From: Ureibacillus sinduriensis BLB-1 = JCM 15800
GTDB taxonomy: Bacteria; Bacillota; Bacilli; Bacillales_A; Planococcaceae
Assembly (NCBI RefSeq): GCF_000772955.1
Contig: NZ_JPVO01000044.1
Coordinates: 1 to 64,000, forward strand
Direction: 5' to 3'
Length of the DNA: 64,000 nt
Each line of letters starts with the position of its first letter. Position 1 is the stretch's first letter. Position numbers and translations under genes: made by a program. Below the pieces are notes generated by a model. It was given only the letters and a program-made list of their open reading frames with translations. It did no database searches and had not been told where the DNA came from. Of the stretch, positions 16,066 to 19,736 are shown in pieces.

Positions 16066-16107
16066 AACAATACATAAATTTATCTACATAAATTGGAGGT
16101 CTTTTTC

Positions 16108-17634
16108 GTGACGAAACGTGCACTTATCAGTGTTTCTAATAAAGAGGGTATTCTGGAATTTGCAAAAGAATTGGTGGCATTGGATTACGAGATCCTATCA
16201 ACGGGTGGTACGAAAAAAATGCTGCAAGATAACAATGTTCCGGTAACAGCGGTGGATGAGGTAACAAAGTTCCCGGAGATTCTTGATGGCCGAGTGAAAA
16301 CATTGAATCCATTCATTCACGGGGGGCTTCTGGGCAAATTCGACGAACCTTCTCACCAAGCGCAAATGAATGAACATGGAATCGAACCGATTGAAATTGT
16401 TTGTGTAAATCTGTATCCGTTTGTAGAAACAATTTCAAAACCGGATGTAACATGGGATGATGCTATTGAAAATATCGATATCGGCGGTCCGACAATGTTA
16501 CGTTCCGCAGCGAAAAACCACCAATATGTAACAGTTATTGTAGATTCAAGTGATTATGCGAAAGTGCTCGCAGAATTGAAGGGCCAGGGGGCAACTACGC
16601 TTGAAACACGCAAGCGTTTAGCGGCAAAAGTATTCCGTCACACAGCAGCATACGATTCTTATATCTCGAACTACTTAACAGAAGAAGAGTTCCCTGAGAA
16701 CCTTACAATGACATATGAGTTAAAACAAACTTTACGTTACGGTGAAAATCCTCATCAAAAAGCCGCGTTCTACCAAAAACGTTTAGCATCGGATTTTTCT
16801 TTAGCTTATGCGACTCAGTTACATGGAAAAGAATTATCTTATAATAATATTCAAGACGGGAACGCAGCACTTCAGATTGTTAAGGAATTCGATATTCCCG
16901 CCGCAGTTGCGGTTAAGCATATGAACCCTTGTGGAGTTGGTACTGGTGCGAGTATCGAGGAAGCATTCGATAAAGCATATGAAGCAGATCCAACATCAAT
17001 TTTCGGGGGAATTATAGCATTAAATCGTGAAGTGGATGTAGCTACTGCTGAAAAATTAAGCGGTATTTTCTTAGAAATCATTATTGCCCCATCATTTACA
17101 GAAGAAGCCTTGGCAATCTTGACTCAAAAGAAAAATATCCGTTTAATGACCATCAACTGTGCACAACAGAACCAGGATAAATTGAAAGTCGTCTCAGTCG
17201 AGGGCGGTTTGTTAGTTCAAGAGGATGATACTTTCGGATTGGCTGAAGCGGACGTGAAAGTGGTAACGGATCGTGAGCCTACCGAGGAAGAATGGGAAGC
17301 CTTGAAATTAGGATGGGCAGTAGTAAAACATGTGAAATCCAACGCTATCGTCGTAACCGATGCACAAATGACATTAGGCGTTGGCGCGGGACAAATGAAC
17401 CGTGTCGGATCTGCAAAAATTGCTCTTGAACAAGCAGGTTCCAAAGCGAAAGGTGCAGCCTTGGCATCGGACGCATTCTTCCCGATGAGCGACACAGTGG
17501 AAACAGCCGCAGCAGCAGGCATTACGGCTATCATTCAACCAGGCGGCTCCATTAAAGACCAGGACTCTATCGATAAAGCAAATGAGTATGGGATTGCTAT
17601 GGTATTTACAGGCGTGCGTCATTTTAAACACTAA
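16108..17634 (+). CDS. purH: bifunctional AICAR transformylase / IMP cyclohydrolase
   Basis: A 508-aa enzyme for the last two steps to IMP. The N-terminal cyclohydrolase (about 1-190) has [15 protein letters not shown] and [19 protein letters not shown]; the C-terminal transformylase (about 200-508) has [21 protein letters not shown] and [14 protein letters not shown] 16108 is chosen because GGAGG lies 8 nt upstream. One oddity is residue 67: the motif reads [10 protein letters not shown] where almost all family members have TLHP. A strong terminator follows, so purD needs its own transcription or read-through. Confidence 0.96.
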
Positions 17635-17662
17635 TTTTGAATACAGTAAGAAGTGGTTCAAT

Positions 17663-17693
17663 AACGCTCGGCAATGAGCCGGGCGTTTTTTTT
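17663..17693 (+). terminator. pur operon terminator after purH
   Basis: AACGCTCGGC (17663-17672) pairs with GCCGGGCGTT (17678-17687, one G-U) and is followed by a run of eight T. It separates purEKBCSQLFMNH from purD. Confidence 0.88.
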
Positions 17694-17719
17694 GAAAGTA
17701 TAAAGAACGGGTATTAAGC

Positions 17720-18435
17720 AGGTTGCGTGTAAACTAGCGTAACTCGCAATTAAACGAGCAATTCGTAAGTAAAGAAGTGTAAACCTCGAACAAAGTGGGA
17801 AAAGTCGCAAGTAAACAGGTGTAGTTTGCTAGTGAAAAGTGAAATTTGCTCGTGATCTAGTGAAAAGCGATTGAGAGAAGTTCCGCTCCGCTCGTAATCT
17901 AGAGAAAAGCGCTCGAGAGAAGTTGCACTCCGCTCGTAATCAAGCGTAAAGCGCTCGAGAAGTAGCGCTTCGCTCGTAATCAAGCGAAAAGCGCTCGAAA
18001 GAGGTTCCGCTCCGCTCGTAATCAAGCGTAAAGCGCTCGAAAAGTAGCGCTCCGCTCGTAATCAAGCGAAAAGCGCTCGAAAGAAGTAGCGCTCCGCTCG
18101 TAATCAAGAGAAAAGCGCTCGAGAAGTAGCGCTTCGCTCGTAATCAAGCGAAAAGCGCTCGAGAAGTTGCGCCTCGCTCGTAATCAAGTGAAAAGCGCTC
18201 GAAAGAGGTTCCACTCCGCTCGTAATCAAGCGAAAAGCGCTCGAAAGAGGTTCCGCTCCGCTCGTAATCAAGAGAAAAACGCTCGAGGAGTTCTACTTCG
18301 CTCGTAATCTAGAGAAATTCGCTCGCAAACATATAGGAAGCGCTCTTAACCAAGCGCTCCGCCCGTAAACGCGTTCAACTCGCTCATAACGTGGGGGAAA
18401 ACGCTCGTGAACACTCACGTTAGCTCGCAACAAAC
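17720..18435. repeat. tandem array of 40/43-bp hairpin-forming repeats between purH and purD
   Basis: About 11-12 head-to-tail units of type CGCTCGTAATCAAGCGAAAA followed by GCGCTCGA(A/G)A and a variable GAAGTAGCGCTC or GAGGTTCCGCTC end. The best copies lie at about 17889-18310. Unit length alternates between 40 and about 42-43 bp, and both edges decay into degenerate copies. Each unit is an imperfect palindrome (AGCGCTTCGCT..AGCGAAAAGCGCT), so the array would fold as a row of stem-loops. No gene is credible here: minus-strand open frames just translate the repeat (SLERFSLDYERS). Function unknown; possibly a REP/BIME-like element. Confidence 0.9.
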
Positions 18436-18479
18436 CTTAAAAGTATTCGATACAATAAAAAATATAGGAGGCATTTCAC

Positions 18480-19736
18480 ATGAACATTCTAGTTATTGGT
18501 AGTGGTGGACGTGAACATGCTATTGCAAAGAAATTTAATGATTCTCCTTCTGTAAGTAGGGTATTTGTCGCACCAGGTAATGATGGGATGAGGCAAGATG
18601 CGGAAGTGATTCCTTTGGATGTAATGGATTTTGCAGGATTGGCCCAGTTTGCAAAGGAAAATCAAGTTGATTTAACCTTTGTTGGACCTGAACAACCTCT
18701 GGCTGGCGGAATTGTGGACTTTTTCCAAGCAAGGGGGCTGCAAGTTTTTGGACCGACAAAAGCGGCCGCTCAAATAGAAGGCAGTAAATCGTATGCTAAG
18801 GAAATGATGAAAAAGTATAATATCCCAACAGCTGCGTATGAGACATTTACCGATGCATCCGCGGCCATTGCGTATATTGAACGACAGGGTGCACCGATTG
18901 TAGTGAAGGCGGACGGATTGGCAGCGGGCAAAGGCGTAATTGTGGCCATGACGGAACAAGAGGCAATCGATGCAGTGAATGATATGATTGGCAATCAACG
19001 CTTCGGGGAATCTTCTTCCCGTGTGGTAATTGAAGAGTTTTTGGATGGTGAGGAATTTTCCTTTATGTCTTTCGTTCATAAAGGGCAAATCTATCCGATG
19101 GTTATTGCACAAGATCATAAACGCGCATTTGATGGCGATAAAGGACCGAATACTGGGGGCATGGGGGCCTATTCTCCGGTACCCCAAATCTCACAGGAGT
19201 CTATTTCGAGAGCGTATGCCGAAATCGTTGAACCCACAGTAAAGGCGATGGAAGAAGCAGGCGTTTCATTTACGGGAATCCTTTACGCAGGGCTAATTTT
19301 AACTAAGCAGGGGCCTAAAGTGATTGAATTCAATGCACGATTCGGAGATCCCGAAACACAAGTGGTTCTCCCACGAATGGCGTCAGACTTTGGTTTGTTT
19401 ATGAAAGCGCTGATGGAAGAAAAAGACTTCGATCTGCAATGGTCTGACGAAGCAATGTTAGGTGTTGTCATTGCCGCAGAGGGTTATCCGGGGGATGTGG
19501 TTAAAGGAAATCCACTTCCGGATTTAAATTCCTTGACGGAGGAGTATCATGTATATCATGCGGGAACAAAGCTTGTCGGTGAACAATTTGTCGGCAATGG
19601 TGGACGTGTGCTTTTAGTCGCTGCGAAGGCCAAAACATTAAAAGAAGCCAAGGAAAAAGTATACACAGGTATTGAACAACAGCAGTGGGACAACTTTTTC
19701 TATCGTCAAGATATCGGTTGGAGAACTTTCCAATAA
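18480..19736 (+). CDS. purD: phosphoribosylamine-glycine ligase
   Basis: A 418-aa ATP-grasp enzyme making GAR from phosphoribosylamine and glycine. It has GSGGREHAIAKK at the N-terminus, VVKADGLAAGKGV, GPNTGGMGAYSPVP and EFNARFGDPETQVVLPR. SD ATAGGAGG precedes the ATG. It lies in the expected order after purH but is separated by a terminator and about 700 bp of repeats. A TACAAT at 18451-18456 could be a -10 box of its own promoter, though no good -35 is seen. Confidence 0.97.
   Translation: MNILVIGSGGREHAIAKKFNDSPSVSRVFVAPGNDGMRQDAEVIPLDVMDFAGLAQFAKENQVDLTFVGPEQPLAGGIVDFFQARGLQVFGPTKAAAQIEGSKSYAKEMMKKYNIPTAAYETFTDASAAIAYIERQGAPIVVKADGLAAGKGVIVAMTEQEAIDAVNDMIGNQRFGESSSRVVIEEFLDGEEFSFMSFVHKGQIYPMVIAQDHKRAFDGDKGPNTGGMGAYSPVPQISQESISRAYAEIVEPTVKAMEEAGVSFTGILYAGLILTKQGPKVIEFNARFGDPETQVVLPRMASDFGLFMKALMEEKDFDLQWSDEAMLGVVIAAEGYPGDVVKGNPLPDLNSLTEEYHVYHAGTKLVGEQFVGNGGRVLLVAAKAKTLKEAKEKVYTGIEQQQWDNFFYRQDIGWRTFQ

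Follow-up and report, generated by a model that had tools for sequence, protein, structure and literature searches.

Between purH and purD of Ureibacillus sinduriensis BLB-1 lie 845 bases, counted from the purH stop (17634) to the purD start (18480), in which a terminator comes first and an array of tandem repeats next (Table 1). What kind of element is this array, and does it belong to the purine locus or to the chromosome at large? We find that it is one member of a group of intergenic arrays scattered over the genomes of this bacterial family. Coordinates refer to the window, i.e. the whole stretch of 64,000 nucleotides that was analysed (NZ_JPVO01000044.1, positions 1 to 64,000).

Table 1 Features of the purH-purD region in the window.
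Feature	Coordinates	Strand	Basis and remarks
purH	16093..17634	+	ORF list; 513 aa from TTG start as listed
Intrinsic terminator 3' of purH	17663..17687	+	Terminator scan; 10-pair stem, then T run
Degenerate 5' array edge	17720..17847	+	Sequence, fuzzy core list; decayed CGTAA/AGTAAA-like cores, steps of about 20-21 bp
Well-preserved array	17848..18325	+	TRF, unit table, exact cores; 11.6 x 40/42 bp
Degenerate 3' array edge	18326..18435	+	Fuzzy core list; decayed cores, steps of about 19-21 bp
purD ribosome-binding site AGGAGG	18466..18471	+	Direct reading of sequence
purD	18480..19736	+	ORF list, 418 aa; matched in 61/61 genomes searched

PurD of the window is 91% identical to that of Ureibacillus aquaedulcis, the nearest named species. 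No purD promoter was reported when the + strand was scanned from 17500 to 18600. By eye, a terminator similar to the one 3' of purH follows this gene in many same-genus gaps, and C-terminal letters of purH recur directly before purD in relatives. Elsewhere in the window, upstream of the pur genes, a purine riboswitch aptamer (RF00167, 5537-5636, 78.7 bits) is the only Rfam match at gathering score; none falls in the array. A separate TRF hit (1494-1574) stems from the Asp-rich repetitive tail of a small protein on the - strand (1479-1970), labelled PepSY-like by its letters.

The tandem array that an earlier note had described between the two genes is borne out by TRF, which reports a period of 42 with 86% matches and a period of 82 with 5.8 copies. 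Its units measure 40 and 42 bp, correcting the 40 and 43 bp proposed there, and each is made of two units of about 21 bp. The half-units alternate between CGCTCGTAATC and CGCTCGAA/GA, i.e. CGCTCGA(A/G), mostly 21 or 19 bp apart. Decayed units extend beyond both ends; these edges are degenerate as claimed, but cores persist in them at about 20-21 bp. Those of the 3' edge read GCTCTTAACC, GCCCGTAAAC, GCTCATAAC, GCTCGTGAAC and GCTCGCAAC. Allowing up to three mismatches, CGCTCGTAATCAAG has 19 matches in the window against 4.25 expected, a number reached by 0 of 100 shuffles. The same note had taken the array for neither a gene nor a CRISPR. No gene is evident: the mixture of 40 and 42 bp maintains no reading frame across the array, and a 91-aa ORF overlapping it is listed on the - strand (17750-18025). 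Nor is it a CRISPR: the stretches between cores recur among the 40/42-bp units, unlike the unique spacers of similar length that separate identical CRISPR repeats.

The 4.0-Mb genome contains the 14-base core CGCTCGTAATCWAG 11 times, and every copy lies within the window array. Taken alone, this exact core would wrongly suggest a one-off; the family becomes visible through a degenerate core. Once the core letters may vary, the array proves dispersed in the genome and in relatives, a possibility raised in the earlier note, and the dispersed entity is the degenerate core together with its two-turn spacing. With a relaxed core, the window's own genome (G000) carries arrays at C4:44-1013, C1:56-83 (both contig starts), C55:35978-36210 and C1:620650, and further places at C6:80231 and C8:15307. 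Contigs start or end in or beside arrays at the starts of G000:C4, G000:C1 and G006:C21 and at the end of G008:C12; draft assemblies are therefore likely to be interrupted at arrays, whose actual copy numbers may be higher.

The purH-purD gap of 24 other same-genus genomes often holds arrays with other cores, and in some genomes none: CGCACATAA in G018 and G023, CGCCCATAA in G003, CGCACGTAA in G011, CGCAAGTAA or CGCAAATAA in G004, G005 and G006, and GGACAAAA in G002, G014 and G012. Named species with an array at this place are Ureibacillus aquaedulcis, U. xyleni, U. manganicus, Lysinibacillus telephonicus and L. endophyticus; in U. thermosphaericus and L. macroides the gap has none. Across 30 gaps counted, the cores lie on the purD strand with the sole exception of one core in G014. 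Relatives' arrays, built on CGC-NN-R-TAA or GGACAAAA cores, occupy many other gaps as well. A second repeat type (TAAGTGATCCAAT-like, or TTGGATCACTTA on the opposite strand), spaced about 21 bp, adjoins GGACAAAA arrays in the G002 purH-purD gap and at L181 3400-4367; how it is oriented with respect to the main family is ambiguous.

When genomes were searched for the degenerate core, pairs or triples of cores were required; five loci (L193, L212, L192, L196 and L213) were picked up by likeness to the window's letters. Of 200 genomes in the family, 97 have a CGCNNRTAA core pair, though many of the single hits may be chance; the reversed-pattern control gives up to 3 pairs per genome and never 4, and at least 5 pairs are found in 47 of the 200 (counted from the table). 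Among 299 genomes of the class, core triples appear in 7, five of them among the 28 of the own family and two among the three of family f33; the other 268 have none (by eye). As these counts cover CGCNNRTAA only, they are lower bounds for the wider class. The two f33 genomes, G289 and G432, contain dense TCGCCAATAA arrays, with 57 and 67 triple matches. Seven of 25 same-genus genomes, outside the GGACAAAA group, have 0-1 pair matches, so that the arrays seem dispensable. The gap DNA had no match in plasmids; in viral contigs, 12 stretches gave one triple match each.

In a table of core spacing, with one chain of at least three cores per locus (70 of 80 fetched loci, 12 genomes, search range 12-29), 539 of 541 intervals are 18-21 bp long: 21 bp in 347, 20 in 128, 19 in 36 and 18 in 28, with single intervals of 22 and 27. 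Spacing is 20 in G065 and 21 in G187 and G107. In G005, G004, G006, G008, G002 and G014 one unit in every few is shorter; mean spacing there is 20.4-20.9, and several of their arrays show higher-order repeats of 82 or 102-103 bp.

Cores and spacers behave differently. In most genomes examined the core is common to the arrays and the spacers vary; since the search pattern fixed CGC and the trailing A, only NN and the spacers count as evidence. Within each of the ten CGC-type genomes the information at NN amounts to 0.9-2.0 bits, against 0-0.7 bits at spacer positions 12-17 in eight of the ten. These positions are less free in G000 (0.7-1.1 bits) and in G008 (0.3-2.0, a single array), and the final spacer bases ahead of the next core are partly conserved.

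The NN letters also form a dialect, which tends to hold across a whole genome and to change from one orthologous locus to another. Modal NN is AA in G005, G006, G065 and G077, TC in G000 and G008, AC with AA in G004, CG in G187 and GG in G107 and G212, and arrays deviating from their genome's mode include L205, L214, L216, L241, L245 and L250. It is shared by 190 of 260 within-genome array pairs versus 418 of 2296 between-genome pairs, and by 7 of 39 pairs that compare an orthologous locus between two species, orthology being set by flanking-protein matches (e.g. L175/L192/L195/L208 and L177/L202/L213; L191, with GGACAAAA, and L193, with CGCTC, match as a single locus). Excluding G000 and G008, where some arrays had been found by likeness to the window's letters, leaves 180 of 250 versus 407 of 1895. 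Agreement within a genome ranges from 21/45 (G004) to 55/55 (G107), with 15/28 in G187.

In eight closed or nearly closed chromosomes, orientation was tabulated for the 58 arrays of which the flanks had been fetched. We located dnaA in seven single-contig chromosomes and one four-contig genome, and took the point opposite as the terminus; L242 lies within 50 kb of this assumed terminus, and the array nearest to the origin is 255 kb away. Fifty-three of the 58 arrays are co-directional with replication, versus 81 of 116 flanking genes. Where the flanking genes disagree, in convergent and divergent gaps, 28 of 31 arrays follow replication (binomial p 2e-6 if independent; as orthologous arrays are not independent, the orientation p-values are optimistic). 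Relative to the array, both genes run with it in 23 gaps and against it in 4, while 24 gaps are convergent and 7 divergent; this excess of convergent over divergent gaps argues that promoters are not the target. At L181 the automatic call had taken a small ORF as left neighbour; the actual one is a 350-aa gene on the array strand. The window array lies on the purD strand, which is co-directional with replication in G005, G014 and G002.

The five head-on arrays come from only three loci: L230 with L249 (one locus by letters, two species), L232 with L247 (another, likewise in two species) and L233. GC skew of the flanks, read on the array strand, is positive for 48 of the 53 co-directional arrays, for 0 of the 5 head-on ones and for all 18 draft-genome arrays; L193, L197, L208 and L212 (contig ends or weak pair) were left out. 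At least 11 further arrays among the matches listed, all co-directional by reckoning, would make it 64 of 69: the purD site in G005, G014 and G002, six arrays in G212 and two in G077. Left out of the counts are four pair-only places in G187, also co-directional, and a weak pair of two unlike cores at G062 C1:497485, which would be head-on.

Composition is tied to the strand too. The array strand has 38% A versus 18% T, and purines exceed half in 67 of 70 arrays. Mean spacer purine content on that strand is 0.66 in co-directional arrays (50 arrays) and 0.20-0.55 in the five head-on ones, which shows that an array may have pyrimidine-rich spacers. Whichever direction the cores take, the spacers thus seem to have the composition of their chromosome strand, and the polarity of the arrays might merely reflect that composition.

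Could the repeats act as nucleic-acid structure? Each unit had been described as an imperfect hairpin, a claim that the + strand does not sustain: against dinucleotide-preserving shuffles, the window array scores z +0.73 as RNA (76 of 100 shuffles at least as good) and z +0.94 as DNA (81 of 100). The - strand RNA is weakly positive (z -2.14), and with mononucleotide shuffles the values are -1.86 (+) and -4.9 (-), so that some - strand foldability remains. Of 16 arrays from relatives, 2 have a z below -2 for the + strand and 4 for the - strand, too few for a common fold; L175 (z -6.1) and L207 (z -4.5) stand apart from most arrays on the - strand against dinucleotide shuffles. That the array is a REP/BIME-type palindrome, as the earlier note had considered, mobilised by a RAYT transposase is therefore scarcely credible. 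It shares with these elements its repetition and intergenic dispersal, the window unit has AGCGCT-like self-complementary letters and the - strand value is weakly in favour, but the + strand has no hairpin signal as RNA or DNA, the units run head-to-tail on one strand and not as inverted pairs, and cores found in relatives, CGCAAATAA and GGACAAAA among them, are not palindromic. Also put forward in the earlier note, a structured RNA upstream of purD is disfavoured too: no Rfam match reaches gathering score in the array, and many relatives' arrays sit in convergent gaps with no gene starting downstream. Improbable, though less so than REP/BIME, is a transcribed element acting in the RNA after the upstream gene, e.g. 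as a protein-binding or decay-blocking tail. In its favour, 48 of the 58 arrays come after a same-strand gene, 24 of these with no terminator seen on that strand on either side of the array, and + strand folding exceeds that of shuffles in a few arrays (L207, z -2.4; L253, z -3.0). Yet in 21 of the 48, and likewise after purH, a terminator-like site stands between gene and array, so that the mixed terminator positions give no transcription rule; arrays in convergent gaps follow replication in 21 of 24, and the window array lacks a + strand fold signal. L244 opposes both flanking genes yet runs with replication, and so does L207, as judged by its skew (+0.091) and by the strand of purD on its contig. 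Intrinsic curvature, in which phased A-tracts would bend the DNA and the array be a mechanical spacer, strikes us as very improbable. Two-turn spacing and A-rich units invite it, and a wedge model yields z of at least 2 in 8 of 22 arrays (3.5 for a 145-bp part of the window array, 8.4 for L210, 11.6 for L213); the same model gives negative z in another 8 of the 22, an inconsistency that speaks against it.

We favour a polar, helically phased protein-binding array, at somewhat below an even chance; protein binding was already suggested in the earlier note and is still the best functional reading of these sequences. The unit comprises a core of about 9-10 bp (CGC-NN-R-TAA) and a freer spacer, together two helical turns long, so that the cores face one side of the DNA. 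A putative DNA-binding protein would recognise the core, with a single protein or dimer on each unit, and would assemble along the array in one direction. With that direction tied to the replication fork, the bound array would be a polar mark on the chromosome arm, serving a fork-coupled or chromosome-organising step rather than purD regulation, and copy number would shift by slippage or unequal exchange. A species' core dialect would change together at all loci because one putative protein reads them all. The conserved core, the freer spacers and the near absence of intervals longer than two turns form the pattern expected of a protein bound to one face of the helix, and the tie to the fork suggests polar use; GC skew and gap types may be added on this side. 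Against it count the apparent dispensability, the satellite-like higher-order repeats, the decayed edges, the link to composition, the five head-on arrays, dialect mixing in G004 and G187 and the less free spacers of G000 and G008. About as likely is a non-functional satellite, growing by strand-biased slippage or unequal exchange at replication while recombination spreads units from one intergenic locus to another and homogenises the genome's dialect. Its higher-order repeats (about 82 and 102-103 bp), decayed edges, patchy presence, excess of convergent gaps, excess of A over T and of purines, and the tracking of orientation with spacer purine content all fit this origin, and Borg tandem repeats with an A bias on the coding strand offer a parallel (PMC9879509, in the part available). 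Copying of whole units, however, would not leave spacers differing among arrays more than the core, as they do in most genomes; only 2 of 541 intervals exceed 21 bp, and the arrays persist at orthologous loci while their letters tend to shift with the genome's other arrays.

If the protein-binding array is functional, it offers a testable system of array, dialect and co-varying reader protein. A bolder version, which we think rather unlikely, makes the arrays polar landmarks of a chromosome-wide system: the putative protein's specificity would drift with the core dialect, and the fixed direction relative to the fork would tell the cell which way a chromosome arm runs, for use in segregation, in guiding condensin or a translocase, or in fork passage. 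If non-functional, the arrays would show that in ordinary bacterial chromosomes satellites grow with a strand bias and are homogenised across the genome.

The closest known kind are the STAR elements of Staphylococcus, a genus of the same class of bacteria; the arrays are not assigned to STAR, as core, spacing, shared loci and polarity differ. According to the part of Purves et al. (2012, PMC3532100) available, STAR elements are interspersed intergenic direct repeats with a short core and spacers, variable in copy number and of unknown function; their 14-bp GC-rich cores are spaced at least 40 bp, most loci have a single motif and the maximum is 7, and the loci differ in each species. The arrays likewise are interspersed intergenic direct repeats with spacers, but with a CGCNNRTAA core, 18-21-bp spacing and up to dozens of copies, at orthologous loci shared between species with altered letters, and with replication-linked orientation; the words 'orientation' and 'leading strand' are absent from the main text of PMC3532100. 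The STAR core TNTGTTGNGGCCC has 0 matches on either strand of the purH-purD gap, as has TGTTGNGGCCC with up to two mismatches. Repeats of CTTTGGTCGGG/TTCTGGCCGGA type, STAR-like by eye, were seen in the pre-purD gaps L092 and G036.

In working principle the arrays resemble parC/ParR, with tandem direct repeats near two helical turns: the available part of PMC9426499 describes 20-bp direct repeats of pSK41 parC bound by ParR in a higher-order structure, the repeats varying by family. There, parC is a plasmid site near parM, unlike the many chromosomal arrays here. With Borg repeats they share A bias and unit size; those are, in the part of PMC9879509 at hand, perfect, 43-65% in ORFs and of independent origins in archaeal extrachromosomal elements, whereas the arrays have related cores within one genome, imperfect units and intergenic positions. 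The TAACTGA direct repeats of Beggiatoaceae, again from part of the source (PMC4679880), are similarly dispersed, intergenic and short-cored, but are set apart by a 7-nt core common to distant phyla and, in one genome, placement mostly just upstream of start codons; a post-transcriptional role has been proposed for them. In the literature searched, covered in part and mostly as titles and abstract openings, no description of the arrays was found, and phased direct units strongly linked to replication direction are not among the dispersed bacterial repeat kinds met there. By eye, repeats of about 21 bp are also present before purD in Sutcliffiella rhizosphaerae (TATGTCCGAAA) and Mesobacillus maritimus (TCGTAGAGTAAAC), at L100 and L130, and the class may therefore extend beyond CGCNNRTAA.
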